DNA of 64,000 bases from assembly GCA_029834535.1 (NCBI GenBank), contig JAQMWT010000350.1, forward strand, positions 62,001-126,000. Reading direction: 5' to 3'. Position numbers and translations under genes: made by a program. The stretch comes from Chrysophaeum taylorii. Taxonomy: Eukaryota > Sar > Pelagophyceae > Pelagomonadales > Pelagomonadaceae. The notes under the pieces are model-generated. The model searched no databases. It had not been told where the DNA came from and saw nothing but the letters and a program-made list of their open reading frames with translations. Below are positions 6,948-57,867 of this stretch, one piece after another (the stretch's first letter is position 1; every line of letters begins with the position of its first letter).

Positions 6948-6961
6948 AATTTTGCAAGTGC

Positions 6962-7276
6962 AGGCCAGTAAGTTCACCTAGTCCCAATCTCTAACCCCAG
7001 TAAGTTCGCCTGGTCAGTAAGTTCACCTAGTCCAAATCTCTAACCCCTGTAAGTTCGGTGTAAACTCACTCGTGCTCACACCCACTCCTTTGAGCTCGTC
7101 GCTCTCACCCCCGCCAATCCAAGCTGCTTTGATCCGCACGCGCCGCCAGCCCGTGAGTTTACTCTTAAAACCCCAGTAAGTTCACCTGGTCTCAGTAAGC
7201 TCACCTGGTCACTATGTTCACATTGTCCCAATCTCAAACCCCAGTAAGTTCACCTTGTCCCAGTAAGTTCACCTAC
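6962..7276 (+). repeat. Scattered copies of an AGTAAGTTCACCT motif
   Basis: The string (C)AGTAAGTTCACCTxGTC, or a close variant, recurs at about 6967, 7011, 7172, 7193, 7241 and 7260, interleaved with 'CCAATCTCTAACCCC'. The copies are irregularly spaced, not a clean tandem array. Each contains GTAAGT, the ideal 5' splice-site hexamer. No coding potential is seen. Function is unknown. Confidence 0.7.
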
Positions 7277-7897: not shown

Positions 7898-8250
7898 TAA
7901 CTAACTTCAGACCTCTCCCGAGCATGGGAGCCAGGCCGGACCGACAGGAGCCAGTCCGGAATCACGGGCCTGTAGACGAGGAGTGCCGAAAGGCCGGTCG
8001 GCGGAGAGTGACCATCAATCGCCATGCGACGAGGAGACCGCGATGTGACTGACAACCAACTCGTCGATAACCTTCCGTCTTCGCCCCCCGGCCATACCCC
8101 GTCCCACTGCGAACGTTCCGGCTGCCAACCGGCCCGCCCGGGAGGCGAATAGGTGCCAACCTACGCCGGGAGGGCGGATGCCCTCGCAAGGCTCAGGATT
8201 CATGAGGCACCGTCCTCCATCGCAACCGCAGTCGGCGATCAGGGTAAGGG
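7898..8250 (-). mobile_element. SINE-like repeat, longest copy (family R)
   Basis: In the minus orientation the sequence ends in a (TTAG)n-type tail, seen on the plus strand as CTAACTAACTAAC at 7893-7905. It closely matches the insertion at 31566-31767 and partly matches 18836-18990 and 27808-27913. It extends farther 5' than the other copies. TTACCCTAA at 7889-7897 and 8251-8259 may be a target-site duplication. The 5' half can be read as GSRNVRS...GRRRKVIDELV, which resembles the start of LINE endonuclease domains, suggesting derivation from a LINE. Confidence 0.65.
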
Positions 8251-8452
8251 TTACCCTAAATCGAGGGACAAACGGCAGCACGCGAACGACCCCCGCCCGT
8301 CCTCTCTTCGCCTGCCCCACGCCTCAGCGATGACCCCGACTAGATCCCGCGTACTTATCTCCGCCCGTCAGGCACATCCCTCATACCCCACAAACCCACA
8401 CACATCCTTCATGCTCCCCACACACACCCCCCTCTTAGCAGTCGACATTTAA

Positions 8453-8505
<53 letters not shown>

Positions 8506-8997
8506 TCTGTCGATTAGTAGTAAGGACAAACAAACAACCAACCAAACAAACAAACGTCTGTCGATTAGTAGTTAAGATGCGAGCCTAGAAGCAAAAGGGG
8601 AAAAATTTGTCGAATATGCGGGTTTGCGAATCGAGGATTTTTTGGGGGAGGTGATTCGGGGGGTATAGGAAGTTACAAAAAAATCCGTTGTTACACAGCA
8701 ATGTTTTCGGACTCGGACAATAAAAATACTAACGAGACGAACCATAACGAACAATCAACAACAGAAAATCATGATACTCACGGGACAATCAACAACAGAA
8801 AATCATGATACTCACGGGTTGTCCAATTAAGAACAATCACCGGGCCCATGAATAGTAAATGAGGCCCGGCTTGCGTCGCCGTCGAGTAGGTGTATCCGCA
8901 CCTCCTGTGCAAGAAACACGCGCAACTTAGTCACAATCGCATCAAGAATATGATCTCACTTGCGCGGCGCGCCAAGGTAGTAAGGGAGAGAGAACGT
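8251..8997. repeat. Gene-poor stretch with simple and short direct repeats
   Basis: Contains a (GACA)n microsatellite at about 8457-8505, a duplicated 'CTGTCGATTAGTAGT' (about 8506 and 8560), and a perfect 34-bp direct duplication at about 8752-8785 and 8786-8819. The string CCCCTCTTAGCAGTCGACAT just before the microsatellite recurs at about 26867. No gene is visible. Confidence 0.75.
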
Positions 8998-10250
8998 TCA
9001 GGTCTCAACCTTGACCTTGCGCCAGCGGTTGTACTTCTTGACCTTGTTCCAGTTGAAGGCCTTCTTCTCGACGTCGTTCTTAGCCTTGGCGACGTCCGTG
9101 CACACGAACGTGTTCGCCTCGGGAGAATTGCGAAGCCGGTCGTGCACTTGCTCCTCGGGGTAGACCTCGGGGAAGACGCTACCCATGCCCACCGCGTAGA
9201 TGTTGAGGGTGGCGGTGCGTTCACGTCCCCAGCACATTGAGCATGACGTGCACCTCAGAGTCCCCCAGATTGTTCGCTCTCCGCCCTCCTTGAGGACATG
9301 AAGACATGCCCCGCCGCAGTTCGGGCACCATCGAGGACCGGAACTCTCCCGTCGAGAGCACCGTCGTTTGTGGATCTCTATCCATCGCGTGACCTAGCCG
9401 GCGCATAGGCGCGCGCCGGCTGATGGATAGTCTCTCCCTTTTCGGGCCAAGGTACCGAACGAAATAGTCACCGCGGAAGACGAGCGTCCGGACACCCCAC
9501 GGCACGAGCCCGCGGTGGGTTCGAATCACCCACCGATCCTCCCAGTCCTTCAATCTCTCGCGTCGCGTCTGCGCCTTTCCGGAATTTTCGATCTTGTACA
9601 ACGAGTACCAGCCCTCCAGCATCCAACGGTAGAGCTTGACGGTATCGTGCAACGACGGGTCCTTTTTATAGTCGTCGTCGTCTTCTTCTTCGTCGCGCCC
9701 TTTCCCCCGGCGTTTGTGCCGGAGATTGGTTCGCTTCTGGTGGTCTTTGACGAACTGATTATATGACCTGCCGGACACCGTGCAAAATACGGGGCTTTTG
9801 GCGCCGTCCCTCAAATTCCGAGGTCGCTTGACCCGCGATTCATACTTCTTCTGTCGTCCGTGGTCGCATGGACTCTCGGCTGGTCAGGCAAGGCAATCCT
9901 CTCCATAAGAAAAGTACCATCCGGCTTCTCGTCCAGAATCAGCTCGGGTACCTCATGTCGAAAATCAGGGTCCCCATTATTAATTCTCACGGCGATTGTT
10001 TCGTCATTGGTGAGATCAATGTCTCGCTTGAACAGCACCTGAAATTGGTGTTTTTTCGTATTTTTCTAGTAAACCCATTGCAATCGGGCTTTCCAAAAAA
10101 TGGTCTTCCAACATCGCTGCCGCATCCCCAGCTTCAAAATCTTCGCCTATCAACGTCTCGAGACTCGATCGTGCACACGGAACACTGCAACCCAGGAGTG
10201 TTGACGTCAGCGACGCACGAGACTCTTGACCTGGCACCTGTCGCCGCACT
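8998..10250 (-). pseudogene. Fanzor-like (eukaryotic TnpB) RNA-guided nuclease, C-terminal half
   Basis: Three minus frames together give the RuvC and zinc-finger half of a TnpB/Fanzor protein. In order: NNGDPDFRHEV near 9975 (the RuvC-I 'DPG' region, Gly replaced by Asp); SYNQFVKDHQKR; a helical Arg-rich segment; TLVFRGDYF; TTVLSTGEFRSS near 9345 (RuvC-II Glu in the usual 'DEFRTS' setting); the first knuckle CPNCGG; and then TLRCTSCSMCWGRER followed by TATLNIY near 9200, the second knuckle and RuvC-III region. At least two single-base frame changes are needed, one near 9850 and one just after GEFRSS near 9335. Unless these are assembly errors, the gene is dead. The family cuts DNA guided by a RNA encoded at the 3' end of its element. 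An inverted repeat lies inside it at 9378-9430. Confidence 0.7.
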
Positions 10251-10460
10251 AATCACACGACGGTTCCATTGGAAGTCCCGTACAAACCACGACGCCAACA
10301 CGGCGGCGCGCTCGACGACCAGAAGACCCTCGGCGTTGAGGGGGGCTTCAAATATGGTTTCCGCGCGCCGTTCTTTGGCGGACGACGAGAGCGAGTGAGT
10401 CGCTCCCCGGGTTTGTGCTTGAGACTTGCGTCCTAGCCGCTCGATGACCCGAAGCTTCGA

Positions 10461-11279
10461 TTACAACGTCTCAGCACCCTCTTCCGAATCTCGGCCGCCT
10501 GCGTCCCCATGGTGACGAGCCATGTTCAGAATATTCTGAACATCTGGAAGAGCGGCGAGGGCGGACTGTTCGACCCAATCCACGTTGCCGACGTCAAAGT
10601 CCATGTAGGTGACGACGTCTTGAACCCGCGTCTCCCCCTCCGCAGTACGTAACGCGACGTACCACGAGGCGTTGCCCGTGTCGTCTAGCGCGCTCGCGAA
10701 TACCACCGGCCCCAGGTCGCTTGGCGTTGCCCTCGTCTCGCTGCCGTCCGTTTCGGAGACAGCCACGTAGCCAACCACGCCGTGGTTGCTTGAAAGACGC
10801 ACGAGGCGCGTCTTGGTGGCGATCGCGAGGATCTGGCATTCCTCGGGCCGGGGCTTCAGTTTTCCCTCGCGGCACCGCAGCGCCCACTCGAGCGCTTGTG
10901 TCCGAGAATCGCAGTCACTCGGAACACCCTTCGCATAAAGCGTCCGTGCTACCAGCCGCCCCAACACCGCGTCGCCGTGGTTCTCTTCCACGTAGGAGGC
11001 TACGTGATGCCGACCACGCGCAAAATCGCACGTGCCGTCGTAGTCATCCGGTGGGCCATTGCCGTAAACGACGAACCGGGCCGCGTCGTAAAGGGAGGGC
11101 GGGGCGTCATACGTAACGAACCCGTCGCCAAGGGCGTCCACGATTGGCTTCGGGACGTTGGTCGGCCGCCGAAGGCGCCAATCGGAGTCGTCGTTGTCGT
11201 CGTGAGCGGCGTTGTTGTGGGGTGCGGCGTCGCGGACATCTGGTTGCCAGAAAGACACCCACGCAGACCCCGCTTCCAT
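10461..11279 (-). CDS. Unknown protein, possible degenerate OTU-like fold
   Basis: A 272-residue frame between the long ORF and the Fanzor-like region, same strand. It is a real-looking GC-biased frame, but no family is certain. Its spacing of motifs parallels the neighbouring OTU-like ORF: SLYDAARF, where an OTU protease would have the catalytic Cys; VASYVEENH; EECQILAIATKTRLVRL; a 'VGYVAV' strand; and a final NASWYVALR, where OTU proteins have His-Tyr. If the parallel is right, it is an inactive OTU-type domain. The true start is uncertain: the stretch before residue 1 is poly-Ala/Arg coding and open, and an exon may lie upstream. Confidence 0.45.
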   Translation of the reverse strand: MEAGSAWVSFWQPDVRDAAPHNNAAHDDNDDSDWRLRRPTNVPKPIVDALGDGFVTYDAPPSLYDAARFVVYGNGPPDDYDGTCDFARGRHHVASYVEENHGDAVLGRLVARTLYAKGVPSDCDSRTQALEWALRCREGKLKPRPEECQILAIATKTRLVRLSSNHGVVGYVAVSETDGSETRATPSDLGPVVFASALDDTGNASWYVALRTAEGETRVQDVVTYMDFDVGNVDWVEQSALAALPDVQNILNMARHHGDAGGRDSEEGAETL

Positions 11280-11588
11280 CGACGTCTCCGCCGCCGCCGC
11301 CGCCGCCGCGCGTCTCGTGGTCGGTTTGGACCGATTCGCGGCCGGGCATTTTTTCCTTCCTCACCCGCCGCCTGGACCCGACGACGCTTCGTTTTGTTGG
11401 TCTCTGGTCGGTCGGACGACGTTTCGGTTGGTGTGCCAAGTTCATTGTCAACAACGTTTTCGGCATCTGCTGCGGTGGTCGCGGTCGTTAAGCCCTTTTC
11501 CTCGTACTAATTGCCCACTTCTTCAGAGTTTTGCGACTCTTCAACTTTTTGTCTTTTGGGGCTTGCCCCGTCCGACGCCTTTTCCTTC

Positions 11589-13857
11589 TCAAGCCTCGCC
11601 TTCCTCCTTGTAGCCGTGGCTCGGCGGCCCAGTTCCCCCACCTCCCCCACCGCGACCCATCCCGTAGCGACCCATCACGTACGCTGAACGTTCCGCGTTG
11701 TCGCGTACAACATCCAATGCGTCGTCCCAGTCATCGCCACCACGCACGCGTGGCTCGATTTCAGGGAAACCCGTGTCCGTGCCCGCAGCGAACGCCCTGT
11801 CCTTGAAAACATTCACCTTGTGCCTGAACGCAGTGCCGTCGCTTGAAAACGATTGGCTGAGCGGCTTCATGTGTTTTCCCGTAATGTTTATCCCGAAAAA
11901 AGCATCGGGGTCGACGTTTTTGAGGGCCTCCTCGTCGACCGCCAACCCCGCGATGCCGCACAGCGTCCGCAACACGACCGGGAAGGTTTCCCGCGTCCAC
12001 GAAAAGAAAAAGGCCGCTCCTTTCTCCCTTAGCGGGAGGAGCTTCAGAGGGCGCATCATGTGAAGCGCGAATGCGCTTGCGCGTCGCACTTGTTCTCTTT
12101 CCTTTTTTCCATCTTCGTCGCTCCCCGCCTCGTCGTCGTCGTCGTCATCGTCCTTCATGAGCTTCCCAACTTCCTGATTGCGCAGCGCCACGAGGAGCTC
12201 GTTTGACTCGACCCGCTCGAGGAGGATCTCCGCACCCTCCACATACTCGGCACCTTTTTTTTTCCGGAAGCCCCGGACGCCCTCGCGGAGGCGCTGGACA
12301 ATCCTCGGACACAACGCGCGTATAACCCTCACGACCCTAGCATCGAGTGGCCGGAGCCTCGGGGGACCGTATGATGTCCCGTCGTACCACTTTTCCCCCA
12401 TGAGGTCGTGCAGCATGCACGTAGCGTCCTGCGCCGAGCGAGGCGCGTTTTCGCGCGCGAAGGGCGCCGTGTCGAAGCGTTCCCCCGGGGATGTGGAGGG
12501 ATTTTCGTTTTGCTGGATGCCGACCCTAAGCTCGAGCTTATCGAGGAATGGAATGACGCAAGGCCGCGTCAGCACCCGCATGACGCGCTTGATGTCCTCA
12601 GGGAGGTGCTGCGTGTTCGTCAGGCTGACTGTGGCATCGAACGAATCGCACAGCGACTCAAACAGCAGACGGGCTCGGCTTCCAAGGAAGCGCGTCGCGC
12701 ACGTCCCTGCACAGTTTTGCGAAGACTTCGTCTGCGTGGGAGTCCATGTAGTCCTCGAGCTGGCCAACTACCGCCTGGATGGCCTCTTGGATGATCTTGT
12801 TTGGGTGTGGGCGGCCGAGTCTGCATCGCTCCGCTTGCTTCTGCAGCTCGCGAGTCTCGAAGTTCTGAATCTGCACCATGATCCCGAGTATAGAGTCGCG
12901 TTTGTAAAGGCCCGTCGCCGCTTCGACATCCTTCTTGTCGGCGCACATGCGCAACGCATTCAACCAAGCGTACTTGGCCGCGCGCCATTTCAAATCGCAG
13001 GCCACGACCAGAATCTTGAGGCTCTTCCTAAAAACACGCCGCAAGTCGACACGGACGACTGCTCCGGCGTCCTCGTCGTATTTGTGCGCGGCCGTGTCGT
13101 GTTGCGTGCCCGTCATCCAAACCGGCTCGTACACGGCCCCCGCTTGTTTGCTGCCTATCCCCAGGCGCGCCGAAAGCCACGAACGCACGACGCGCTTATC
13201 GAAGGTCGCACGTTCGTAGCCCCAGTTGTTCTGGTACTCGGTCTGCACCGACCCTCGGAGACCCGCTGCGTTTCGAATGTAAACGCGCAAGTGGCCCTTC
13301 GATTCCACCGCTCTTTGGGTGAGCACGCGGTGCGTTTCGTGATCCCCGAGAATGTCATCGACCATCGTACGCGCTGACTCGCTCGAGCGCATCGCCCCAA
13401 GATCGCCGACCAGCCGCTTCAAGAGGAGTCGCGCAGCTTGCAACGTCAGCATTTCGCGCGTGGTGTTCTTCCACAACGAAATGATGACGCGATCGCCATC
13501 GCCATCGTCGTCGCCCGCGTGCTCAGCACGGAATTCACGAAGCATGATTGGGGTAGCTCTTTCCCCGAATATGACCTCGATTTGCCACGGGGTGTCTTGA
13601 TCACCTTCGCTCGCGTGCAAACGGCGCGAGAAGTTTGATGGGACGTACTGCTCGTGCCATCCCTCGACTTGGATGGCCGTCGTTTCTCTGAGGTCGTTGT
13701 CGTTGTAGACGATGATGAGGAGCGCGATGAAGAGCTTGCGCGGCGTTAGCCTAGTCGCCGCCGGCGTTGAGGTTGTCCAAGTCTTGGACATCGACTCTGC
13801 TCGTCCAGCTCTCGGCCCCCTCATCGTCAACGAAGACGAGTTCGCCGGAAATCGCAC
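11589..13857 (-). CDS. Long two-frame protein with a possible Fanzor N-terminal motif
   Basis: Two GC-biased frames, 13857-12658 and 12767-11589, overlap by 110 bp. They read as one protein of about 730 residues if a single shift occurs near 12690 (CTTCCTTGG context). The first half contains YERATFDKRVVRSWLSARLG and many long helices; I recognise no enzyme. The second half has a Glu/Asp run, then a segment with FFFSWTRETFPVVLRTL and LSQSFSSDGTAFRHKV. The latter resembles the 'F-x-T-D-G' strand that precedes the RuvC domain in Fanzor proteins. That is a weak, single-motif match. The C-terminus is Gly-rich. It may be one frameshifted gene, two genes, or a gene with an unrecognised intron. Confidence 0.5.
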
Positions 13858-15340
13858 CGCTTTCCACAGACTGCGTCCGCGCGCCCCCCGCGCGCGTCAA
13901 GTCGAATCCCCCCTCTCTGTCGTCGTCGTCGTCGTCGTCGTCCTCGTCCTCATCCTCGTCGTCGTCGATGATGAGGACATCGTATCGTCCCCACGCAGAC
14001 GCGAGTAGAGCGACGCGCTTTTCGTCTTCACGCGCCCGTCCAAACGTCGACGAAGTGATCGTGCGACGGTACACGTAGCCTCCACCCTCCGCCCTAGCAT
14101 ATACGTCGACGTGGCAGCCGGACCAAGCCGCCCACATGTAGATGTCGACGTCGCCGTATAATTCTTCGCCGCCGCACATCAAGTTGGCATAGTCGCCAAT
14201 ATCGCAGCCGACAGCATTCCAAATCCAACGAGCCCACGACGCGACGCCCGAGGGGGCGGCGTCGTTCTGGTGCTCGGTCAACCACGCCGCCAACTTGCTG
14301 CGAAGGCTGCGCGTGGACGTGACGACGCGAATTGCGCTGTCACCCGACATGAATATCCCTTGGGTAACACACAGCGCTCCGAAAAGCGACGCGTCGTTGT
14401 CCGGCGCACGGACGACGTGAGCCTCGGTGTCGGTGAGCCTCTTTTTGCGAGACCCAGGCGTGTCCTCCTCTCCTGCGCGGGAGTCTGTTCGGACATCATC
14501 GGCGCGCAGCTTCCAGGACGTCAACGAGGGCGACGAGAAGATGACGTCGTCAGCCACGCCGTCCGCATCCGTCCCCGGTTGATCGCCGTGTGGAGGTTGC
14601 TGGTGCATGAAAGCCTCGTAGTCGTGGTCCACGTCTTTCTGCGCGGCGTAGGGGATCCCCTCGTCGGCAGGCTCGACCAACGCCTCGCACGGAGAAACAT
14701 TACTCCGGCTCGGCAAAATTACCGGGAATACCCCAGCGCCGGAAGCACGAGACTGCCCGTCGTCGTCGTTGCCGTTATCACCATCGTCTTCGTCCGCGTC
14801 GTGTCCAAGGCTTTCGCCGCCGTCGCCACAGTAAGCAGCCTCAACGCCTTCGCCCGCATCGCCATCTTCACGGACGACGCTCGTCCCGCCTTCGTCGCCA
14901 CTTTGGCGGGCGTTCGTCCCCTCGCCGATTACGTCGTCGTCGCCGCCGCCGCCGCATGTCCCCGAGGTCGTCACCTCCGCCCGGCCTCCGGCGCCGCCCA
15001 AAACGTCGCTGCCGCCGCCTTGACTTTCGTCATCGCCGCCGCCGCCTTTGTCGCCACCATCGGCGTCGCCACCATCGGCGTCGCGCCCGGCGACGTCTTC
15101 GCCGCCGCCCCAAACGCCGCCGCTGCCAAGTCGAGGAGACCCGTCTTCGTCCTCGCCGCTTACGTCGCCGTCATTATCGTTGGCGCCCCCACCGTCGTCA
15201 CGGGCAACCATGCCTCTCGCGCCGCAAATCACGGTATCTCCACCGCCGCCGTCAGCGCCATCCACGTCGCCGCTGCAGCAGTCATCGTTGCCGCCCGCAC
15301 ATTCGCAATGTTCGCGCCACGCCGGCGTCGTCTACCTTCG
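13751..15340 (-). CDS. OTU-like protein lacking the catalytic cysteine
   Basis: The frame is open from about 15340. No ATG is seen near its start; the first in-frame candidates are a GTG at 15265 and a Met in ARGMVARDD. The first 200 residues are a Gly/Asp-rich low-complexity tail. Residues about 300-430 look like an OTU domain: DNDASLFGAL (OTU motif D-G-x-C-L-F, with Ser for Cys), LRSKLAAWLTEH, then MCGGEELYGDVDIYMWAAW and CHVDVYA, and GRYDVLI where the His-Tyr box should be. A poly-Asp run follows. OTU domains are known in some Helitron2/Helentron proteins, which would fit the Pif1 relic nearby. The 3' end overlaps the next frame by 107 bp. Confidence 0.5.
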
Positions 15341-18099
15341 TCACTCGGATACGGCGACCGGCCACGGCGCCACCACAAGCGACCACCACAAGGACCATTT
15401 CCGGCTCCTCCAACAGCTTCTAAGTCACAGGCCCGGGTGCTGTGTCGTCGAAGGTCGCGTTGCACGGCCCGCGGCGGCAGCAAAAGAAGCACAGAGGGCA
15501 CCAGTGGTCTGGCGCCCTCTCGGGCGGAGAGCACGTTGGCGTGGTGGTAGCCTGTTGCCGAGGGAGGCTTGATTCCGCCCGGAATTCGTCGTTTTGAGCA
15601 CGGGTGTTGTTAACTTCCGGCGGCGGACGCGTCGTCGATCCGAGTCCCTCTCGCAACAAGGCGGGCCGCGACTTCGCGCCTTGTGGTCGGAAAAGCAACG
15701 AGGCTCTTGTTCACTTTCCCGGTCCACACGCCCGTAACGTGCGCGCGCCTCCGCGTAGGTAACCACGAGGCAACACCCGTACTTTGCGACAAAAAAAGCC
15801 GCGGGACGCCGGACCGGCTCGCGGCGCAGCACATGCCGCAACGACAGAAAACCACGAACCAGGCGCAGCTGCGCTACCCGGGAGTATGGTGAATAGCGGT
15901 GGGCACGGTTGCGGCATGTGCCACGGGTTCGACATCGGGCATGCGGCATGACCTGCACGAGCCTCTTAAGTAAAAGGCCGTGCACCGTGAGAGGCCAGCC
16001 GTGTGCGCAACACACGGGCACGATGGCGCCGCATTCGAACGACAGGCCATGTAGGCAGGTGTACCCGGCTGCCAAGGAGAGACCGGCCGCGACACCTTTC
16101 TCCAATGCGAAGATGACCCCCCCCCGAAGAAAAGCAACAGAAGCACCGTACGAGAGCGGATGCACAGCACGAGAAGTAGGAGACGAAGCAACAGCTCCAT
16201 ACTATACCCTAGTCGTATCCCTAGGGGGGAATGAAGCACACACACCAGCACCACCAACAACACCGACGATTCGCGAAAAGGAAAAGCATTTAGCACAAAG
16301 TACAAGGTGACGTGATGGGATATGTAATAAGCCGCGAACAGCGCCTGGAGCACCGGTGACGGGGAATAAAATTTCTGGCGAGTGATGGCATCGAGGAAGA
16401 AGGCAGGGTATTTTAAGTGACAACGGCTCCTTGTCTCGCGGTGAAGAGGGACGTGGGGGGCGGGGAACAACTCGTCCGAGTGACGAGGGTTCATCGAGGG
16501 GATCGTCTGCAGTCGGCGGCGGTATCCGTGGCAACCAAAATAGAGGCGTAGGCCGGCGACATCGAGTAGTCCGCGAGGGTCGCGGCAACAACGGCAAAAT
16601 GGACTCAGTCTGTCGTAGGCGCACGAAAGGCCACGCTGGTCGGGACGTGGAACCCGTTTTTTTTCGTTGTCGTCGTCGATACGATACGACGCTTCTAATT
16701 CCATCGCCGCGTTCGAGGCCATACGAGAGTAAAAAAAAAAATGACCGGCTTGTCTCCATTATCCAACACCGCCCCCTTCCAGCGCCCTGTCCGATAAATG
16801 TTGTGGTCGAGCTAAACAAAACCCACCTAGAGGTGGTGGGGAATGAAAAATTGATGATGAGGAGGAAGTAGAGATGGGGAACAAGAAGGAAGGAAGCCAC
16901 GAACGAGACTGACTTTTGAGGCACGGTAAAGACAAGAAGGGAAAAGATAGTCGTTCGCTCTAAAGCGCGAACGAGTTTAAAGAGAGCACCTAGACAGAAG
17001 CGACGGGAATCGGCGAAAACACGCGTAGGTTTCGCAATATCCCCCCAGCAGAGAGAAAAATAAATACGTGGGTGCGATCAATCCTTCGTGCTCATCCTCG
17101 ACAATGGAAAAAAAAAAGGGGCCCTGCAATAACCTTTCCTCCGGAGTGGGCGAATATCGGATGTCTCTCGAGCAAGGCTCCGTAGAGAAGAGAACGTGCA
17201 GCAAAAAACAAAAAAACCATGGACACCGACGCAGCATTAAAAAAATGACAGAAAGTGTTGATGTGCCGTAGGAAGCAGAGAACCAACGCATGCTTCCACA
17301 AACCAAGCAAACCAAACCGACATTTTGGGCCCCTTCTCTCGCGTGACTCCGGGGCCATAGAATGGCGCATCCAGCAGGCACAGGGACCCAGCATGTCGGT
17401 CGGTCGGTCGGATTGGTCGCAAATGGGTGACGCCACGTGGTGCTCGCTCGTATTTGACGCAACATGGCCCATAAAATGGGAAAGACACATCGGTCGCGCG
17501 ACAACCTCGTCCTTTGTATAACGCAGGCACTACGATCGCAAATCGCAACTATCAACATCCGGGTTCATTTTCGTCGCGTCGCTCTTTATGGGCACAGCGA
17601 GGTGATGTCGCCGAGACAAGCATGGCGCGAACGATACCCTCCGACACGTGGCCATCAACTTTCAGTGGTCTTCAAAGTCTCATCACGGGACGACGACGAC
17701 GACGACGATGCGGACACGTCGGGTATGGCTTCGCGACAGGTCCGAACTTGTCGAACTTCCTCATCTCGCCGTTCCTTGGCGCCGTTGAAGCTGACTCCAA
17801 CGGTGAATACGAACGGGAAATGCGAGGGTAATAAAAATGGGATTTGTGGATGCGGTTGGTTACGTCGGGTGCGGTCCGGCAAGGCAGAATCCGTCACTCG
17901 CGCCGCTGTCTCAAAGTTGGAGTATACAAAGCCAGCGCCCGCGTCGGACGGTGTGTCGTTTCTACATTGCGGTAGGTATTATGCGCGCCGCGCCATAAAC
18001 TGGCCGCACGAACGGGAGATTTTCAGCGGTAAGTCGTCTAGGCTGGGAAGTTCTTGGGATAGGCCGCACGAGACGCAACTGGATTCGGAGGATGCACAC
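15341..18099. other. Gene-poor region, nothing convincing
   Basis: Several open frames of 100-280 codons exist on both strands, but they lack consistent codon bias, recognisable motifs or low-complexity-free cores. A (GAC)n run near 17690-17706 creates some of them. No tRNA or rRNA seen. Confidence 0.5.
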
Positions 18100-18990
18100 G
18101 AGTGCTCGGTGATCAGAGTCCGGAAAGGCTCACAGTGAAACCTCCATCCGAAACTAAAAGTTTTGGCTTTAGACGATGGTCAATGATGACGAGTTCGAAG
18201 GCAAACACGACAAATAAATGTACCAATGGCCCGTGGTTGGGTTCGGCGAAGAAGGTGACAGGTACTGCCAGTTCCCTCTTAGCGAGAAAGGTGAACATCC
18301 CGCGGCTCGCGTCATTCACTTTCGGCGTGGACAATATACTTGTCTGTCGTCCAAATCAGCCCACGCGCCAATGATGGTGTTCCCATCCATACCAACGATA
18401 TGCCGTTTCCGTTGCAGAGCGGTGATTAAATCATCAAAGAAAGAAATGCCAAAGCCTTCGCAGAGGCATCAACGACCGGTGCGTAGGCACTGACGAGGAC
18501 GAGCCCGAGATCACATCCTTTTCGCATCTCTCGCAAAGAGTAGTTGAAACATCACGCAACCCGAGTCTCAAATCTGTTCTTCACCGTTGTCTCGTCATAT
18601 CCTCGACGAAGAGGAGCTGAGAGTAACGACGACCATTCGTTGTTGGCCTACGTAGTGGCTTTTTTGTTCCTCGGTGGCTTCAAACAGGCGCGTGATTCCA
18701 TCCTCTTCCTCCAACGAATGACTCCGTAAAGAAAAAAAAAAAAGACTTCCTCGTACATGCCCCCATAAGTACGTCGCCTCGGCAAATTCGCCACCAAGTC
18801 GTCAGTCTTCGCCACGTTTTCTTAGACGACGAATTGACTAAAAACGATATCGTCATAAACGTTTCCTTCTGCGTCCCCCGGCCATACCCCGTCACGCTGC
18901 TCACGTTCCGGCTGCCAACCGACCAGCCCGGGAGGAGAACACGTCCCAAGCCACGCCGGGAAGACCAATGGCCTCGCAAGACGCAGGTTC
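18100..18990 (-). pseudogene. LINE (non-LTR) endonuclease-domain relic
   Basis: Minus frames contain REMRKGCDLGLVLVSAYAPV, FFDDLITALQRKRHIVGMDG then NTIIGAW, and MFTFLAKRELAVPVTFF, followed by IIDHRL. These follow the order of an APE-type LINE endonuclease ('LxLVSAYAP', 'FYDDL...GDFN', 'NTFF', 'QIDYIL'). Each block is in a different frame and stop codons intervene, so the copy is dead. GSRNVSSVTGYGRG at about 18920 may be its start ('GTWNVxSLTG'). No reverse transcriptase domain was found downstream. Confidence 0.65.
18836..18990 (-). repeat. Partial copy of family R
   Basis: CCCCCGGCCATACCCCGTC, CGTTCCGGCTGCCAACCG and CACGCCGGGA are shared, in order, with the 5' half of the repeat at 7898-8250. 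The (TTAG)n-tailed half is absent; LINE endonuclease sequence continues instead. This links family R to the LINE. Confidence 0.65.
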
Positions 18991-19120
18991 ACCCAAAACC
19001 GTTCTTCATCGCGACCTATGACAGTAGTTATAATATGTGTCACGGGGAAGTCGCGGGGAAGAGGAAATCGCAGAGGAATCCGCGGGGAAGGGGATTTTTT
19101 TCTTTAGACTCTCCTGCATC

Positions 19121-20130
19121 ATGCGAGGCCTTGTCACAACTTCGTGGCTCGCAGAGCACCTCCGCCAGGTGTCGGTGGTCGACGCCTCCTGGAGCCTGCC
19201 GGGCTCGCCGTTCGAGGCCAAGGTCGCAGAGGCATTTGCGGCCTCGCGCATCCCCGGGGCGCGGTTCTGGGACCAAGACAAGTGGAGCGATGAGAGTGCT
19301 TCAATCGCGCCGCATAATATTCCGACAAAGCCGCAGTTCCTGGAGGCGGCCAGGGGCCTCCGCCCCCCCGTCGTCGTTTACGACCAGTTCGGCATCTTCT
19401 CGTCCCCAAAGCTCTGGTTCACCTTGAGGTATTTCATTTTATTTCGTCTAGTAAAGTAAATTCGAGGTATTACGGCGTCGCCGCGGCAGTTCTCGATGGT
19501 GGCCTGCCGGCGTGGGTGGCGGCAGGGTACGACCTCGAGTACGGCCCGCCAACACCGCCGGGTTCCGAGGTTCTGGCAGCGAGCGTCCAGGGGAAACAAT
19601 GGCGCCTCGGAGACGTCCGCGGATGGCTCGACGACCGTCGCGAGAAAAAACTCGTCGACGCGAGGTCGAAACAACGGTTCGACGGCGCCGTCCCCGACCC
19701 GCGCGGCCTCAGGTCCGGCCACATCCCCGGCTCCCTCAATCTCCCTTTTACCGACCTTCTCGACCCCGTGCCAAACCCCGAAAACCTCCCGGGCGGCCGA
19801 TGGCGCGGGGCAAAACTCAAATCCGATGAGGCTCTCTGCGACCTCTTCAGCAACATCGGCGTGTCCCGAGGTTGGCTAAAGACAAAATAACGCGCACTTC
19901 GTCGTCGTCGTCGTCGCAGGCGACCCCGTCGCCGTCACTTGCGGCTCGGGCATGACGGCCGGCCATATCGCTCTCGCGCTCCACCGCATCGGCACGGACG
20001 ACGTACGTGTTTCTTTTCTCCTCGTATAATTCGCCACACGCCCCTTCTTCTTCGACAGATCGCCCTCTACGACGGTTCTTGGACCGAATACGCCCAGACC
20101 GAAGACCTCCCGGTCAGTACGACGCCATGA
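19121..20130 (+). CDS. 3-mercaptopyruvate sulfurtransferase (rhodanese family), four exons
   Basis: Two rhodanese domains: an inactive N-terminal one (VTTSWLAEHLRQVSVVDASW, ... RIPGARFWDQDKWSD) and a catalytic C-terminal one (KLVDARSKQRFDGAVPDPRG, SGHIPGSLNLPF, then VAVTCGSGMTA with the catalytic Cys). It ends in ALYDGSWTEYA. It transfers sulfur from mercaptopyruvate or thiosulfate to cyanide or thiols. GT-AG introns at 19429-19466 (38 bp), 19871-19919 (49 bp) and 20003-20058 (56 bp) join the four frames exactly. The active loop CGSGMT is closer to mercaptopyruvate sulfurtransferases (CG[S/T]GVT) than to thiosulfate sulfurtransferases. The C-terminus ends a few residues after the conserved domain, as usual. 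Confidence 0.9.
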
Positions 20131-34947: not shown

Positions 34948-36543
34948 TTGATGATGGGAGTGTTGCTGGTGCCCGCCGTCGTGACGGCGTTCTTGAGTCC
35001 CCCTCCGAGTAGGAGCTGGGCGCGATGGCGGGCACCTCCTCGGGCCGGCGCGACGGTGCCGAACGAGGTGACGGCCGAGAACCCGTTGCGCGTGGTGATC
35101 GCGGGCGCGGGTGTTGGGGGTCTCGCGCTCGCGAACGCGCTCCGGTCTTGCCCGCACGTGGAGGTGACGGTGTTCGAGAAGACGTCGGAGTTCAAGCGGT
35201 TTGGCGGTCCGATTCAGTTAGCGTCGAACGCGATGCAGATCTTCAAGGCGATCGACGGGCAGGTCTACGCGGAGATCGAGAAAAAGTTCACGTGGACGGG
35301 TAATTTGACGAACGGTATCAAGGACGGACTCCGCGACGAGTGGTATGCAAAGTTTGACTTGAAGTCGCCGGCCGACGCGCGGGGGATGCCGTATACGGGC
35401 GTCATCGAGCGACCCGAGCTCCAGGATATTTTGTTGCGGCATCTGGGGCAGGGGGTCGTGCTGAACGGCCAGGCCGTCGCGGGCTACGATCAGGAGGCGA
35501 GCGAGGTGTTGGTCGAGCTGACGGACGGGAGCCGCGTGGGCGCCGACGTGCTCGTCGGGGCCGACGGGATCTGGTCCGAGGTTCGGGCGACGATGCGGTC
35601 CGAGCCGAGCCGCGGCGAAGGGTCGGGGGTGGCCTATTCGGGGTACACGGTGTTTGCCGGCGAACTCGACTACGAGTCCCCGACCCGCGGGATCCAGGGA
35701 TACTCGGTGTACATCGGTCCGAACCAGTACTTCGTCATCACGGATATCGGCAACGGGCGGTACCAGTGGTACGCGTTCTTGGCGCGGCCGCCGAACTCGG
35801 CCGAGGTCGAGGAAAAGCCCGATGGAAACGTCGGGTACCTTCGGGCGATCTTCGAGGGCTGGTCCCCAGACATTCACGACATTCTGAGCGCGACCGGCGA
35901 GCACGAGATAGAGCAGCGCGACCTTTACGATCGGCCGCCGTCGGCACTTCGGTCGTGGTCGGACGGTGCCGTCGCGCTTTTGGGAGATTCGATTCACGCG
36001 ATGATGCCCAACCTCGGCCAGGGGGGGTGTCAGGCGATCGAAGACGCTTTCGTCATCGCCCAAGAGCTCAACGCGACGACCGCCAGGACCCGCGTCCCCG
36101 TTGCCCTCAAGCGCTACCGCGACCGCCGCCTCGTGCGCTCCGCGACGGTCCAGGGCCTCTCGCGGTTCGCGAGCGACATCATCATTCGCGGTTTCGACAC
36201 GCCCTTCAAGCTCGTCGTCGAGGACGGCAAGAAGCTCCGCTTCGAGAACGCCAATTACGCGGGCATCGTCACCCGCCTCATGCAGGGCATCCTCCCGCTC
36301 TTCTTCATGGCGCAGTTTAACTTTCTCTACGACGGCTGGCGGAACGAGGTGGCCTTCGACCTCAAGGCCGGCCTCATCATCGCCTCCTTTGGCGCCCTCC
36401 TTCTTCTCCTCGCCGCCGGCGCCGTCGGCGACCTCGCCATCCTCCTTCCCTTTGGCCTCGAGTCCCTTGGCGCGACCGAGCTCTTTGCCTCTCTCTCCGA
36501 AACGATCTCCTCGGTTCTCCCCTCCATCGACTCGGTTCTCTGA
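34948..36543 (+). CDS. ZEP: Zeaxanthin epoxidase-like FAD monooxygenase, plastid
   Basis: 531 residues. The leader MGVLLVPAVVTA|FLSPPPSRSW is a signal peptide with Phe at the cleavage site followed by a transit peptide, as in complex plastids. Next come the FAD dinucleotide fold VVIAGAGVGGLALANAL (about residue 48), the conserved DG motif VLVGADGIWSEVR (about 205), and the second FAD motif VALLGDSIHAMMPNLGQG with GGCQAIEDAF (about 345). Together they match zeaxanthin epoxidases, which convert zeaxanthin to violaxanthin in the xanthophyll cycle. The last 90 residues carry two hydrophobic segments, an unusual membrane-anchoring tail. No introns. The closest alternative is another FAD hydroxylase of the same superfamily. 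The retrotransposon ends about 150 bp upstream. Confidence 0.85.
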   Translation: MMMGVLLVPAVVTAFLSPPPSRSWARWRAPPRAGATVPNEVTAENPLRVVIAGAGVGGLALANALRSCPHVEVTVFEKTSEFKRFGGPIQLASNAMQIFKAIDGQVYAEIEKKFTWTGNLTNGIKDGLRDEWYAKFDLKSPADARGMPYTGVIERPELQDILLRHLGQGVVLNGQAVAGYDQEASEVLVELTDGSRVGADVLVGADGIWSEVRATMRSEPSRGEGSGVAYSGYTVFAGELDYESPTRGIQGYSVYIGPNQYFVITDIGNGRYQWYAFLARPPNSAEVEEKPDGNVGYLRAIFEGWSPDIHDILSATGEHEIEQRDLYDRPPSALRSWSDGAVALLGDSIHAMMPNLGQGGCQAIEDAFVIAQELNATTARTRVPVALKRYRDRRLVRSATVQGLSRFASDIIIRGFDTPFKLVVEDGKKLRFENANYAGIVTRLMQGILPLFFMAQFNFLYDGWRNEVAFDLKAGLIIASFGALLLLLAAGAVGDLAILLPFGLESLGATELFASLSETISSVLPSIDSVL

Positions 36544-36727
36544 TGATGCGAGAGGATGGTAATAATTAAGTATAAGGGTTTGTGATTAGAGGTCGGTCGA
36601 CTAAAAAAAGCTTCCCCTGGTAGATACGATTAATTAATTAGGAAAAACAAACAACAAAAGGTAGAGAGAGGTGGTAATACATAAAGTGAAAAGGGGGTTA
36701 GCGGGAGGTGTGGTGTGACGTCGAATA

Positions 36728-39628
36728 ATGATCCTCGTCGTCTGGTGCACAATATTGACCGTCGCGAGCGCGCTCGCGCGTGCGCGGTGGGTGCGCGGCG
36801 GCGGGTCCTCCTCCTCCTCCTCGTCGTCTTCCGTCGAGGTGGACGAGGAGCTGTACAGCAGGCAGCTGCTCGCGTTCGGTCGCGATGCCCAGGGCCGGCT
36901 GAGCGAGGGCCGGGTGCTCGTGGTCGGGTGCGGTGGCGTGGGGATCGAGGTGTGCAAGAACCTAGCGCTGGCCGGGGTCGGGAGCCTGGGGATGTGGGAC
37001 GACGGCGTGGTTGGCCCCGGGGAGTGGCAGCTCTTTGCGTCGACCTCGGACGAGGGTCGGCGTCGATCCGACGCGTCGGTTTCTCGCGTCGCCGAGCTGA
37101 ACCCTTATTGCCGCGTGCGCGTCGTGGAGCGGCCCGAGTGCTTTGACTTCGACTGCGTGGTCGCGTGCTCCGTGTCGGCCGAGCTGGTGGCGCGGCTCGG
37201 CGCGGAGTGCCGCGACGCGGGCGTCGGGTTCGTGTACGCGGGCGTTAGAAACGCGACGGAAATCGTCGTCGCCGACGACTTTGGCGATGGATTCGAGGCC
37301 GTCGATCGCGAGGTCTCGTCGTCCTTTTCCGACCCCAAGCTCGTGGAGGAGGCGGTGGAATCTGGGGAGGTGGTAAGCGTGCGGCTCGCGGGCGGCGAGC
37401 GCCACGACTGCCAGGCGGGCGATCGCGTGTTCGTCGGAAGCGACGGTCCGTTCGAGGTGACGGCCGTGCCGCGGCCCGACCGCCTCACGGCCACGACGAC
37501 TACCAAGAAGAAGAATAAGAATAATAATAATAATAAGACGATGATGATTAACACAACCACCTCGTCAGAGATGATGATGCTACGCGCGATTCCGTCGCGG
37601 GTTGTCGTGGACGGCGAGGCGGTGACCGAGAGCGACGCGGTCGACGACGACGAGCGGGCGACGCCGCTCCGCGCCGTGGCTGGGGGCGTCGCCGCGCACG
37701 AGGCCCTCAAGTACCTCGCCGGGGGCCTTCTGGGTCCCCCCGTTGGACGGTGGACGATGGACGTCTCCGAGGAGCTGGGTCCCGAGGAGCACGACCTGGA
37801 CGAGGCGTCGGCGTTCGTCGTCGGCGCGGGCGCGACGGGCTGCGAACTGCTGAAGAACCTCGCTCTGATGGGCGTCGGCAGGGTCGTGGTCGCCGACGAC
37901 GACGCCATCGAGACTTCGAATCTCAACCGACAATTTCTGTTCCGCGCTTGCGACGTCGGCAAGCCGAAAGCCCTCGTCGCGGCCGAGAGGGCCCGAGCTA
38001 TGGGGACGTCGACGCGCGTCGAGGGCGTCGACAAGAGGGTGGACTCGACGTCCTCCGCCCTCTTCGAGCGCGAGGTCGTCGCCTCGGCCGCGTGCGTGTT
38101 TTCGGCCCTCGATAACCTCGAAGCTCGGCGGTTTCTGGACCGTCTGTGCGTGGCTCACGCGCGGCCTTTCGTCGACACGGGAACGCTCGGCGCGCGCGGA
38201 AGCGTCCAGGTGTGCGTGCCGCACGTCACCGAAACCTACAGCAACTCCCAAGACCCCGAGGACGCGGGGGCCGTGCCGCTCTGCACGCTCAAGCAACACC
38301 CCTACAAAATAGACCACGTCGTTTCCTGGGCGGCCGACGTCTACGACGGCTACTTCAACCGCAGGGTGAAGCGCTTGGAGGCGCTCCTCCGGTCCTACGA
38401 GCGCGCCGGCGGCGTCAGGACCTGGCTCCGGTCCCTTGGAGGAGAACAGGACCTTCAAGCTCTCTCGGCCGCGCTCGAGGACGTCTGCGACCTGCGGTCG
38501 CCGAGCCCCGACGCCTGGGCCGCCCGCGAGTTTTCAGAACACTTCGTGAATAGCGTTCGCTCGCTCCAATCCGCGCGCCCGCGCGACGCCCTCGACGACG
38601 ACGATGGCATGCCCTACTGGACTGGCACGCGCGTCTGGCCCCGCGCGGCCGAAACCACCGACGACGACTTCGTGCGGAGCGCGGCGCGCCTCCGGGCCGC
38701 GACGCTCGGCGTCGACGATCCTCCTCCTCCTCCTCCTCCTCCTAGTACGCCGGATCCCGCCGGTCCTAGTACGGTCGAAGACCTCGAGCTGAGTCTCGCG
38801 CGACTCGTCCATGCGACGGGCCGGGCCCCCGCCGAGATCGCCGCCTCGCTAAAACCTCGTACCTTCGACAAGGATAATCCCGACGACCTGGCGTTCGTGG
38901 CGGCGGCCGCCAACGCGCGCGCGCGCGTCTTCTCTATACCCCCCGCCGACCCCCTCCGCGTCAAGCAGATCGCGGGGAGCGTCGTCCCCGCCATCGCGAC
39001 CACAACCGCTGTCGTCTCTGGCCTCGCTGCCCTGGAGTTTCTTAAACTCAGAAACGACGGCAAACCCATGAACGCCTTCGTCAATCTCGCCATTCCCGAC
39101 ACCTCTGCCCGCGCCGAGCCCTTTCCCTGCGACTCCTGGACCCTTCCCGACGGTACCCTCGTCTCCGACTGGTCACCGCGTGCCCATCTTAATCTCCCGA
39201 CCGGCGCGACCGTCCCGAAACTCCTCGACCTTATCGTCGATCACTACTTCCCCGATCGACGCGACGTTCACGTCGCTTCCATCGCTCGCGAATCCGACGG
39301 CGACCTCCTCTACCTGGCCGCCTTCAACCACGTCTATGCCAAGACCCCCGCCGCCGACCTCCTCCTCGCGACCGACGACGACGACCGACCGGACGACCAA
39401 CCGCCGCGTACGGGGGCTTCGGCTTCTGCTGCGGATGATCTCACGCCTTTTCCAGAGGAGGAGGAGGAGGATGCCGCCCCAACCTTCGTCGACCTCCTCG
39501 TCACCGTCGCCCCCGGCCATCGCCGCCACCACCACCCGAGGGACGACGACGACGCGGATATCCCGCTTCCCCCGATTCGACTCTGGATAGACAACGCCCT
39601 CCTCTCCAGACACCACCAAAACCCCTGA
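36728..39628 (+). CDS. Uba1-type ubiquitin-activating enzyme E1 with signal peptide
   Basis: 966 residues. The inactive N-terminal adenylation half has LVVGCGGVGIEVCKNLALAG. The active half has AFVVGAGATGCELLKNLALM, IETSNLNRQFLFR and KPKALVAAE (ATP and Mg binding). The catalytic Cys is in AVPLCTLKQHPYKIDHVVSW, matching 'P-I-C-T-L-K-N-F-P' of Uba1. A C-terminal ubiquitin-fold domain is suggested by LPTGATVPKLLDLIVDHYF. The N-terminus is a signal peptide (MILVVWCTILTVASALA) followed by Arg-rich, Phe-free sequence. In algae with red complex plastids, such leaders send proteins to the periplastidal compartment, where a symbiont-derived Uba1 serves the SELMA import machine. That assignment is inference; the E1 identity is firm. 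A Lys/Asn-rich insert (TTTTKKKNKNNNNN) near residue 257 is low-complexity. Confidence 0.85.
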   Translation: MILVVWCTILTVASALARARWVRGGGSSSSSSSSSVEVDEELYSRQLLAFGRDAQGRLSEGRVLVVGCGGVGIEVCKNLALAGVGSLGMWDDGVVGPGEWQLFASTSDEGRRRSDASVSRVAELNPYCRVRVVERPECFDFDCVVACSVSAELVARLGAECRDAGVGFVYAGVRNATEIVVADDFGDGFEAVDREVSSSFSDPKLVEEAVESGEVVSVRLAGGERHDCQAGDRVFVGSDGPFEVTAVPRPDRLTATTTTKKKNKNNNNNKTMMINTTTSSEMMMLRAIPSRVVVDGEAVTESDAVDDDERATPLRAVAGGVAAHEALKYLAGGLLGPPVGRWTMDVSEELGPEEHDLDEASAFVVGAGATGCELLKNLALMGVGRVVVADDDAIETSNLNRQFLFRACDVGKPKALVAAERARAMGTSTRVEGVDKRVDSTSSALFEREVVASAACVFSALDNLEARRFLDRLCVAHARPFVDTGTLGARGSVQVCVPHVTETYSNSQDPEDAGAVPLCTLKQHPYKIDHVVSWAADVYDGYFNRRVKRLEALLRSYERAGGVRTWLRSLGGEQDLQALSAALEDVCDLRSPSPDAWAAREFSEHFVNSVRSLQSARPRDALDDDDGMPYWTGTRVWPRAAETTDDDFVRSAARLRAATLGVDDPPPPPPPPSTPDPAGPSTVEDLELSLARLVHATGRAPAEIAASLKPRTFDKDNPDDLAFVAAAANARARVFSIPPADPLRVKQIAGSVVPAIATTTAVVSGLAALEFLKLRNDGKPMNAFVNLAIPDTSARAEPFPCDSWTLPDGTLVSDWSPRAHLNLPTGATVPKLLDLIVDHYFPDRRDVHVASIARESDGDLLYLAAFNHVYAKTPAADLLLATDDDDRPDDQPPRTGASASAADDLTPFPEEEEEDAAPTFVDLLVTVAPGHRRHHHPRDDDDADIPLPPIRLWIDNALLSRHHQNP

Positions 39629-56095: not shown

Positions 56096-57595
56096 TCACG
56101 CAGCGGCGGCGGCGGCGGCGGCGGCGGCGGCTTGGACGGCGACGACGACCAAGTCGGCGCCGCCGCCGCCGCCGCCGGCGGCGGCGCCTCGCTTGGTAGG
56201 GGTACTCGCAACGAGGTCCGCGAGGACGGCGGCCGCGGCGGCGTCGGTGGAGCCGAGTCTGTCGTCGTCGGCCCCTCCTTCTTGGCCGCCGTCTTGAATA
56301 GTGTGGTCGGAGGCAGTGTACTTGCGCTTGGGGAACTTGGGCTGCTCGAGAATGGCGGGGTCGAGGGCGATGTCGACCAATCTGGTGGCGAGGGTGTCGG
56401 GGGTGCCGTCGACGAGATCGTGGAGGGACGCTTTGAGAGTTGGCCAGTACCTGAGGTGCGCTCGAATGGTCTCCGTTATGTCGTCGGCGGCCGTCGGGTC
56501 GCAGCAGGGGTCCTCCTCGTCTTGGTCGGCCGGGGGAGGGTCTCCGAGGAGCGCGGTCGCGCAGGCGCAAAAACACCGTCCCAGCATGTCGAGATGGTAG
56601 CCGCCCTCGAGCATCAAGCAGACGGGCGCGAGGCGCGCAAGGGGGGCCAGCATCTCGTAGTAGCCGCGGGGCGTGACGCAGCACTCGCCCAACGGATCGC
56701 CGCGCGCGGCGTCGAAGCCGGCCGAGACCAAAACGAGCTGGGGCTGGTAGGCAGCGGCGACGGGTAACAAGAGGCGACGCCAGCAGGCCGCGTACTCGGC
56801 GTCGCCCGCGCCCGGCTCGGACCAGCGGCAGTTGATGTTGAGACCGCTGGCCGTCTCGCTGGGTTTTCCGGTCCCGGGGTAAAACAGGGCAGAGCCGCAA
56901 GTCTTTCTCGACTCGAAGCCTCGATGCACCGAAAAGTACAAAATTTTAGGGTCGTCGTAGCAAAAGGCCTGGGTGCCGTTGCCGTGGTGGACGTCCCAGT
57001 CGACGATGAGGACGCGGTCGAGCGCAAACAGAGTCCGCTCCGATCTGCCGCGATCCACGACGAGCTTGCCGTTCGTCGCGAGTTTTGCGCACGTCGCGAC
57101 AGAATTCAGGAAGCAAAAGCCCGAGGCGCGCTTGGCGCAGGCGTGGTGGCCCGGCGGTCGAATCACCGCCATCGCGTGCGCGTGGCGCCCAGCGACCACC
57201 GAGGCGCACGCCTCCAACGCGCATCCGAGGGCAAGCCTCGCGCAGGTCCACGTCGACGCGTTCACGTATACGTCGTGCTCGAATTCCTTGACGAGCTTCG
57301 CGCGGTACTTGCGGGTCGCCTTGGCAGACTGCGCGAGCGCCGCGACGTACCGCGCCGAGTGCAGCTCGAGGATCTCCTCCTCGACGGCGTGCCGGCTCTC
57401 CAGCTGCGCGCACCGCTCCTCGAGCCCGTTCTTCCTCATCGCCTTGACGATCGCCGCGTGCCTTTCGGGTTGCTCGGGATGGCTCGCGTCCCCCACCGGA
57501 AAGTGGTCTTCCATACGTACATCGTGGACGTACCCCACCGACCGGTTCACAACGTGCCCCACGAAGTGCTGTAGTATGCTTGGCTTTGGCCTCAT
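56096..57595 (-). CDS. Class II histone deacetylase
   Basis: About 500 residues from MRPKPSILQHFVG; the frame is open farther upstream but that part is not protein-like. The catalytic core is complete: HPEQPERHAAIVKAM, AVIRPPGHHACAKRASGFCF (active-site His pair), VLIVDWDVHHGNGTQAFCYD (zinc Asp/His), LVLVSAGFDAARGDPLGECC (second zinc Asp) and LMLEGGYHLDML. Spacing and 'DWDVHHGNGTQ' place it in class II (HDAC6/10-like), acting on lysine acetyl groups of histones, tubulin or other proteins. The C-terminus ends in a Gly run and a poly-Ala tract encoded by a (GCC)n repeat at about 56099-56130. Confidence 0.9.
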   Translation of the reverse strand: MRPKPSILQHFVGHVVNRSVGYVHDVRMEDHFPVGDASHPEQPERHAAIVKAMRKNGLEERCAQLESRHAVEEEILELHSARYVAALAQSAKATRKYRAKLVKEFEHDVYVNASTWTCARLALGCALEACASVVAGRHAHAMAVIRPPGHHACAKRASGFCFLNSVATCAKLATNGKLVVDRGRSERTLFALDRVLIVDWDVHHGNGTQAFCYDDPKILYFSVHRGFESRKTCGSALFYPGTGKPSETASGLNINCRWSEPGAGDAEYAACWRRLLLPVAAAYQPQLVLVSAGFDAARGDPLGECCVTPRGYYEMLAPLARLAPVCLMLEGGYHLDMLGRCFCACATALLGDPPPADQDEEDPCCDPTAADDITETIRAHLRYWPTLKASLHDLVDGTPDTLATRLVDIALDPAILEQPKFPKRKYTASDHTIQDGGQEGGADDDRLGSTDAAAAAVLADLVASTPTKRGAAAGGGGGGADLVVVAVQAAAAAAAAAAA

Positions 57596-57867
57596 CTCTT
57601 TGCTTTCGTGCTTGAAGAAGTCAACTGAATTGGTGGTTTGCACCCTCTTTGAAGAAGCGTCGATGAATAAATATATAAATAAATAAATAACCGAAGCGTT
57701 TTTTTCTTCTCCATAAAAACGCCCTGAGCGCGCTCGGGACAACAACAACAACATAAATAATCGACCAGGGGCCGCATTCCATTCTTCGTAGTAATAAAGT
57801 AAAACGGAACTTCCGAAGAAGAAGAAGATTAGAAGCGTGCGAAATTTCCAATGCGTCGTCCTACATT

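Follow-up and report, generated by a model that had tools for sequence, protein, structure and literature searches.

The window, a 64-kb piece of contig C350 from a genome of 70.8 Mb in 697 contigs, probably carries a mobile element of more than 10 kb, in a copy that is dead and has lost an internal stretch. In better preserved sister copies the last gene of this element encodes a RuvC/zinc-ribbon nuclease of the Fanzor lineage, with a USP-like domain before it. The first-pass annotation had confined the feature to 8998-10250. The element was instead found to span 8585 to about 19108-19117. Coordinates are given in Table 1, and other loci are named by their contigs.

Table 1. Features of the element copy in the window.
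Feature	Position	Strand	Basis or remarks
Fanzor-like nuclease remnant, C-terminal RuvC part	8998..9844	-	GEFRSS Glu motif, C4 zinc ribbon, GRER
Small frame-shifting indel inside remnant	within 8998..9844	-	sister-copy comparison
Conserved segment of about 150 nt, taken as non-coding, candidate omega-RNA scaffold	8835..8983	-	conservation
Element 3' end, ...GCTTCTAG	8585..8588	-	copies agree, flanks differ beyond
Upstream element part	9845..14790	-	about 94% identical in C40, C409, C586
Element 5' part	16201..19108	-	copies at C443, C40, C424, part at C314
Possible target-site duplication, 3' side, CTCGCAT (minus reading)	8577..8583		
Possible target-site duplication, 5' side, CTCGCAT (minus reading), 12 nt before TCTAAAG	19121..19127		
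Deletion junction, internal, about 4.1 kb	9844..9845		lost: RuvC-I (DPG), USP-like domain, most of C48-like frame

The zinc finger and the Glu motif that had been annotated were both read in the window. The minus-strand frame 8998-9393 translates as CPNCGGACLHVLKEGGERTIWGTLRCTSCSMCWGRERTATLNIY and contains the finger as CPNCGG...LRCTSCSMCWGRERTATLNIY. The minus-strand frame 9221-9883 terminates in GEFRSS, and the frame breaks after it. The zinc-ribbon piece of the window alone matched PF07282 at E 0.14, below the cut-off, and Pfam searches with the window's own pieces gave weak sub-cut-off matches only. RuvC-I had been assigned to a DPD stretch in frame 9811-10065. This assignment was rejected: the homologous stretch of C409 reads MVDLGFEI, a short way ahead of the C48 frame, while the true RuvC-I (ANDPGIT) is located within about 4.1 kb that is missing from the window.

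Copies of the gene were found at 12 or more loci when the 70.8-Mb genome was searched. These are C350 (the window), C671, C586, C409, C40, C29, C314, C548, C337, C9 and two loci on C242. By BLASTN the homology of C586, C409 and C40 to the window stops at 9844 and resumes at 9845, and these copies have the 4.1 kb in between. Window 8584-9844 and the sequence from 9845 onward were both homologous to one element in the sister copies, and the 9844|9845 junction is readable in the sequence. On this comparison 9845-10250 is read as a different part of the same element. Two single-base frame changes had been proposed. The reading frame is indeed broken, and one break is a small indel, lying after the Glu motif and ahead of the first CxxC, but the other is the large deletion. 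The description as a decaying remnant holds for the window copy, which has both the deletion and the frame-shifting indel. It is a dead, decayed pseudogene with no working nuclease, and it cannot work because RuvC-I is gone.

Seven close copies were mostly 85-97% alike in protein, and C337 was nearly identical to C548. Codon periodicity was weak among the close copies, and pN/pS of the nuclease part in the close family was 0.17-0.63. Between C548 and C409 dN was about 0.58-0.61 and dS about 1.9-2.1 (dN/dS 0.27-0.32). Between C9 and C409 dN was about 0.35 and dS about 1.1 (dN/dS about 0.31). As dN is well below dS in both comparisons, the protein was constrained over that span. Beside the C548 Fanzor copy, at L044:1809-2984, a GCN5/PCAF-like acetyltransferase with a bromodomain was recognized by eye.

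All seven sister copies that are readable at RuvC-I (C671, C586, C409, C40, C314, C548 and C9) have DPG there, a count that omits the window copy (deleted) and C29 (not readable). In C409 and C314 DPG is followed, 209 residues on, by a Glu placed exactly six residues ahead of CxxC. Six residues after the second CxxC these two copies have another Glu, followed by a TATLNI-like stretch (RE...ATLNI). The alternative Glu, at this distance of six residues from the first CxxC, lies in GEFRSSMTCPNC in C409, C314 and C29, in GEFRSLMTCPNC in C586 and in DEFRSSKTCPGC in C9. It is also present in C671, where the CxxC is altered, and in C40, where the CxxC is partly deleted. The C4 zinc ribbon is CPNC-x21-CTSC and is located between RuvC-II and RuvC-III. 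DPG with the alternative Glu is described as the Fanzor molecular fingerprint in PMC10711439. The search pattern of that paper is DPG-x(120-160)-ExxxxxxCxxC-x(12,18)-CxxC-x(4,8)-D, and the family exceeds it in the zinc-ribbon spacer (x21 compared to x12-18) and in the DPG-to-Glu spacing (209 compared to 120-160). The common TnpB/Fanzor motif published in 2013 is D-x(125-275)-[TS][TS]xx-[C4 finger]-x(5-50)-RD, and every part of it except the last Asp is present in the family (PMC3627910). Because Glu stands where RD has its Asp, the family is termed a divergent relative and not a typical Fanzor member.

Five of eight family members, several of them nearly identical, matched the Pfam TNB domain PF07282, with a best E of 8.9e-5. 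C409 scored 20.3 bits, below the curated cut-off of 26.3. The best PDB match of the family profile was the TnpB-like protein L79. This match was weak (E 0.049) and its alignment covers the C-terminal motif, where RD of L79 stands opposite RE of the family. No TnpB match was obtained in NCBIfam, nothing meaningful was returned by PDB sequence searches with single proteins, and no relative of the C409 protein was found in viral contigs. A full profile built from 28 alternative-Glu TnpBs of viral contigs did not match the family. With a short viral-TnpB profile family copies ranked 1, 3 and 5 but did not reach significance; a reversed decoy came second and an unrelated frame fourth. AlphaFold models of both halves were too poor for use (mean pLDDT 35 and 33). 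Forty mononucleotide shuffles of the window, 2.56 Mb in all, contained no instance of the pattern Glu-x6-CxxC-CxxC-[D/E] with widened spacing. The window's own match to it takes another, out-of-frame Glu because the frame is broken. The TnpB/Fanzor ancestry first proposed for the feature is supported by the PF07282 matches and by the DPG/alternative-Glu fingerprint of the relatives. As judged from sequence the family is a divergent Fanzor variant, with modest profile evidence.

GRER had been noted at RuvC-III, with the Asp missing or replaced by Glu. The comparison of copies bears this out as a replacement. The third catalytic residue was Glu in 9 of 9 readable copies, in the form GRER or GREC in the seven close copies and DHERSATLNIY in C548 and C337. 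The count omits C9, which is unreadable there, and the two C242 loci, which are without the 3' half. It rests on two independent lineages, since the close copies are alike and C337 resembles C548. With all nine readable copies agreeing and two subfamilies under constraint, Glu at the third position is a lineage trait; the Glu itself was read in C548 and is not readable in C9. GtFz1 of Guillardia theta has a natural Asn at this position and cuts DNA, and in SpuFz1 the D606N change raises cutting above the wild-type level (PMC11423790). The third position is therefore not invariant among accepted Fanzors, and Glu need not kill the enzyme. For the role of the third RuvC residue in Fanzor the family supplies a natural Glu, in two subfamilies, beside the working Asp and Asn of PMC11423790.

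An RNA had been guessed at 8850-9000 on the minus strand. Sequence conservation backs this guess and makes the segment there a candidate. The segment starts about 15 nt past the Fanzor-like stop. Pairwise comparison of seven copies over the 150 nt that follow the stop gave 56 differences at 3150 positions. In the same seven copies the differences were 297/5649 at third codon positions and 388/11262 at first and second positions, and one 100-nt coding window was roughly as conserved as the segment (1.9%). Segment identity was 110/143 to C9 and 91/142 to C548, figures which are inflated somewhat by the choice of alignment. Synonymous sites are near saturation against C409, with 58% differing in C9 and 69-71% in C548. 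A 28-nt core, designed on the same copies it finds and allowed up to three mismatches, has 10 occurrences in the 70.8-Mb genome, and every one of them directly follows a copy of the Fanzor-like gene. The reversed core, used as a control pattern, had 0 matches in the genome. The two C242 loci without the 3' half are omitted from the segment counts.

Support for a fold of the conserved segment was mixed. A covariance model matched window 8835-8983 (minus) at 178 bits, with the window itself in the training set, and all 10 of its matches in the 16 sources searched were training sequences. Five pairs had changed on both sides compared to 1.7 in shuffles (2/500 reach this), the alignment tested being also the source of the structure. 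Pair types were unremarkable in number, which 85/500 shuffles reach, and in helix 1 three of the eight pairs were broken in two of ten sequences. Single-sequence fold z was -3.0 for C409, -0.3 for C9 and +1.0 for C548. A longer stretch past the C409 stop had a fold z of -1.68, with 14/200 shuffles as good. Rfam gave no match up to E 0.1 in window 8000-20000. The segment stops short of the element end by 224 nt in C409 and by 250 nt in the window, so a guide from flanking DNA is not obvious. Omega-RNAs are known beside Fanzor genes, and a candidate omega-RNA scaffold is the likeliest reading of the segment. On it the presence of a guide RNA in this new lineage could be tested directly and at low cost.

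The 5' start of the element has a conserved (AGAG)TCTAAAG, and the exact first base is uncertain within the range given above. Four of five copies begin with AGAGTCT on the 5' side, and C314 differs. C586 was comparable only as far as window 12304, where its contig ends. The stretch 16201-19113 was considered as a separate repeat and rejected as such. It is the element's own 5' part, as order and orientation are the same in the window, C40, C443 and C314. A derivative on C5 of about 243 bp is made up of just the two element ends, which links the 5' and 3' ends to one element. AAAGGGGAAAAT forms a short imperfect inverted repeat. At the 5' end it was exact in 2 of 5 copies (C40 and C5) and absent in C314, and at the 3' end it had two or fewer mismatches in 10 of 11 copies. 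A CTAG end is present on the element. C40 has an 8-bp flanking duplication, GAGGGTAT, which abuts CAGAGAGTCTAAAG on one side of the element and on the other side lies one base beyond CTAG. The flanking duplications of the window and C5 are imperfect or offset by several bases, and none was evident at C443. The first 7 nt of the 3' flank after the CTAG end, GCTCGCA, were identical in C671 and the window. Copies of the element include extra 3' fragments and internal deletions. A 34-bp stretch at 8769-8802, found in the window and not in C409, lies beside a near-identical copy, as a tandem duplication confined to this part of the non-coding 3' region.

No transposase was recognized in the frames tested, and the tested open frames of the element had no Rep/helicase Pfam match. 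The Helitron Rep domain PF14214 had 40 matches in the genome, and the contigs that carry the 12 Fanzor loci had none of them. Of the Helitron 3' end, which combines CTRR with a subterminal hairpin, the element has CTAG; no hairpin was found, and the window end folded no better than shuffles (z 0.61). The element was not filed under Helitron because the expected 3' hairpin was not found. Several of the 40 PF14214 matches are in long open frames, and rolling-circle transposons are therefore abundant in the genome.

Other repeats and frames were seen around the element. Short repeated units at 6955-7275 recur at the C671, C9 and C242 loci. A GACA microsatellite at 8460-8520 lies just outside the 3' end, with similar tracts at C671, C586 and C242. 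A GC-rich low-complexity acidic repeat occupies 14600-15400, where the window diverges from C40 and C409. The C40 element is abutted and interrupted by a repeat (C40:46421; L049:5421 onward) that has over 30 copies, the majority of them 89-97% identical. A repeat of about 1 kb at L050:937-1971 has very many copies, often in tandem, and is a satellite or subtelomeric repeat. By eye, the window also holds an oxidoreductase-like frame with a signal-peptide-plus-AF start (34948-36543) and two ordinary host genes, a ubiquitin-activating E1-like frame (36719-39628) and a histone-deacetylase-like frame (56096-58090). Some genes of the window, such as the oxidoreductase-like frame with its plastid-type start, resemble those of algae with a secondary plastid.

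The order in C409 is a Ulp1-type protease frame, a USP-type frame and a 408-residue nuclease frame, the last of which holds ANDPGIT. The C48 domain of C409 matched PF02902 at E 1.4e-5 (25.5 bits, above the cut-off of 20.7) and its USP-like (C19) domain matched PF00443 at E 2.2e-5 (24.6 bits, marginally above the cut-off of 23.9). C409 was the only copy with C19 and C48 matches above the Pfam cut-offs. USP remnants were found directly upstream of the nuclease in the close copies, in C9 and weakly in C548 (E 1e-4), so that the USP-like domain adjoins the nuclease in three subfamilies. Since C9 and C548 have it too, the USP-nuclease linkage appears older than the subfamilies. In the close family pN/pS of the C48 frame was 0.54-0.69, and that of the USP frame was 1.03 in C314 and 0.70 in C586. 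These values give little sign of recent constraint on the two domains.

The USP frame of C409 overlaps the nuclease frame in another phase, and no Met precedes RuvC-I. By their coordinates C671, C314 and part of C40 have the same phase difference, and C586 differs. Splicing or frameshifting would be the simplest reading of this offset. The minus-strand window frames 10461-11360, 11589-12767 and 12658-13896 had no Pfam match over the cut-off. The second of these reads FSSDG in the window and FSTDG in C409, and from this FS[TS]DG motif, noted by eye, it may be the N-terminal (REC/WED) half of the Fanzor. Profile searches with this frame gave no match to the Fanzor WED/REC half. In the literature searched, with matching papers covered in part, no Fanzor-like nuclease was linked to deubiquitinase-like or deSUMOylase-like domains. 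The nuclease-protease linkage suggests that proteins of the element act on host ubiquitin or SUMO control.

Two alternatives would remove the feature as a decayed Fanzor relative. That the frame breaks are errors of assembly and the window gene is intact is scarcely credible. One of the indels is small, and nothing else favors it; 4.1 kb including RuvC-I is absent at one junction, and the lesions differ from copy to copy across the other loci. An unrelated zinc-ribbon protein of a mobile element could resemble TnpB by chance, and the weak profile scores, with the reversed decoy second between two family members, fit this. It is nonetheless a very improbable account, as DPG, the exactly spaced alternative Glu, two CxxC and ATLNI co-occur in order, the pattern was absent from the shuffled sequence and PF07282 matched as strongly as it did.

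Two further alternatives concern function. The conserved segment could be a cis element, such as a 3'-UTR signal or a transposase-binding site, or a protein tail in another frame, and not an omega-RNA. This has a sizeable chance, somewhat below even. By eye, one frame of the first 50 nt or so gives TTLARRASEIILLMRL-stop for C409, and for C548 it gives TTLGRGAREIMLLRRL-stop; the Leu and stop-codon changes between the two copies are synonymous. Conservation runs about 96 nt past that stop, however, and the C9 copy is without a stop there (both by eye). The location of the segment inside the element end and the folding of the C9 and C548 segments, no better than shuffles, count in favor of this alternative. 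The pairs changed on both sides count against it, in a structure from the same alignment and with an unremarkable number of pair types. A slightly less probable alternative, on the doubtful side, is that the lineage is nuclease-dead and that loss of the third Asp left an RNA-guided DNA binder with a regulatory use for the element, like the TldR proteins known in bacteria. Glu for Asp throughout the readable copies, in two subfamilies with constraint between them, is in its favor. The RuvC-I Asp and RuvC-II Glu are both retained, however, and activity is known for a natural Fanzor whose third residue is Asn (PMC11423790).

On the preferred reading, a dead copy of a Fanzor-bearing element, the ancestral protein would have bound RNA made from the conserved segment and found matching DNA by a guide. 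It would then have cut the matched DNA or, with altered chemistry, only bound it. Cutting or binding could help the element to persist at its site or to be recopied to it. Such a role in persistence or recopying has been proposed for known Fanzor/TnpB systems. A more elaborate version is unlikely as a whole. In it a transposon Fanzor would work with Glu, have USP/Ulp1 domains fused or inserted between its WED and RuvC halves, take its guide RNA from the segment after the gene, and shield itself or its target chromatin from ubiquitin/SUMO control.

KDZ/Zisupton and Ginger elements are transposons with Ulp1-type proteases, and the element described here likewise has a C48-like domain and, in its C40 copy, an 8-bp flanking duplication. 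It differs from them in its USP-like domain and Fanzor-like gene, and no transposase of these groups was identified in the frames tested. CRe-1, 2 and 3, Chlamydomonas elements of the Helitron2 group with Fanzor1, differ from the element in that no significant 3' hairpin and no Rep/helicase were found here, and the element has a CTAG end and short inverted repeats. CRe-1, 2 and 3 resemble it in that 3' ends outnumber 5' ends, copies are internally deleted, target duplications vary, and a few additional bases sometimes stand on the 5' side (PMC3627910). Fanzor1 proteins differ from the family in having Asp (or Asn) as third catalytic residue where the family has Glu, and the family differs in that its element also carries protease domains, USP-like and C48-like, ahead of the nuclease, with a putative WED half. 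The two are alike in being carried by eukaryotic DNA transposons (PMC3627910, PMC10432273, PMC11423790), in the D-x(125-275)-[TS][TS]xx-C4 finger motif with DPG and the alternative Glu, and in a conserved segment at the gene's 3' end that resembles an RNA, here a candidate. GtFz1 is a parallel at the third position, as it shares with the family a natural residue other than Asp, an Asn in an active enzyme there and a Glu read from sequence here (PMC11423790).
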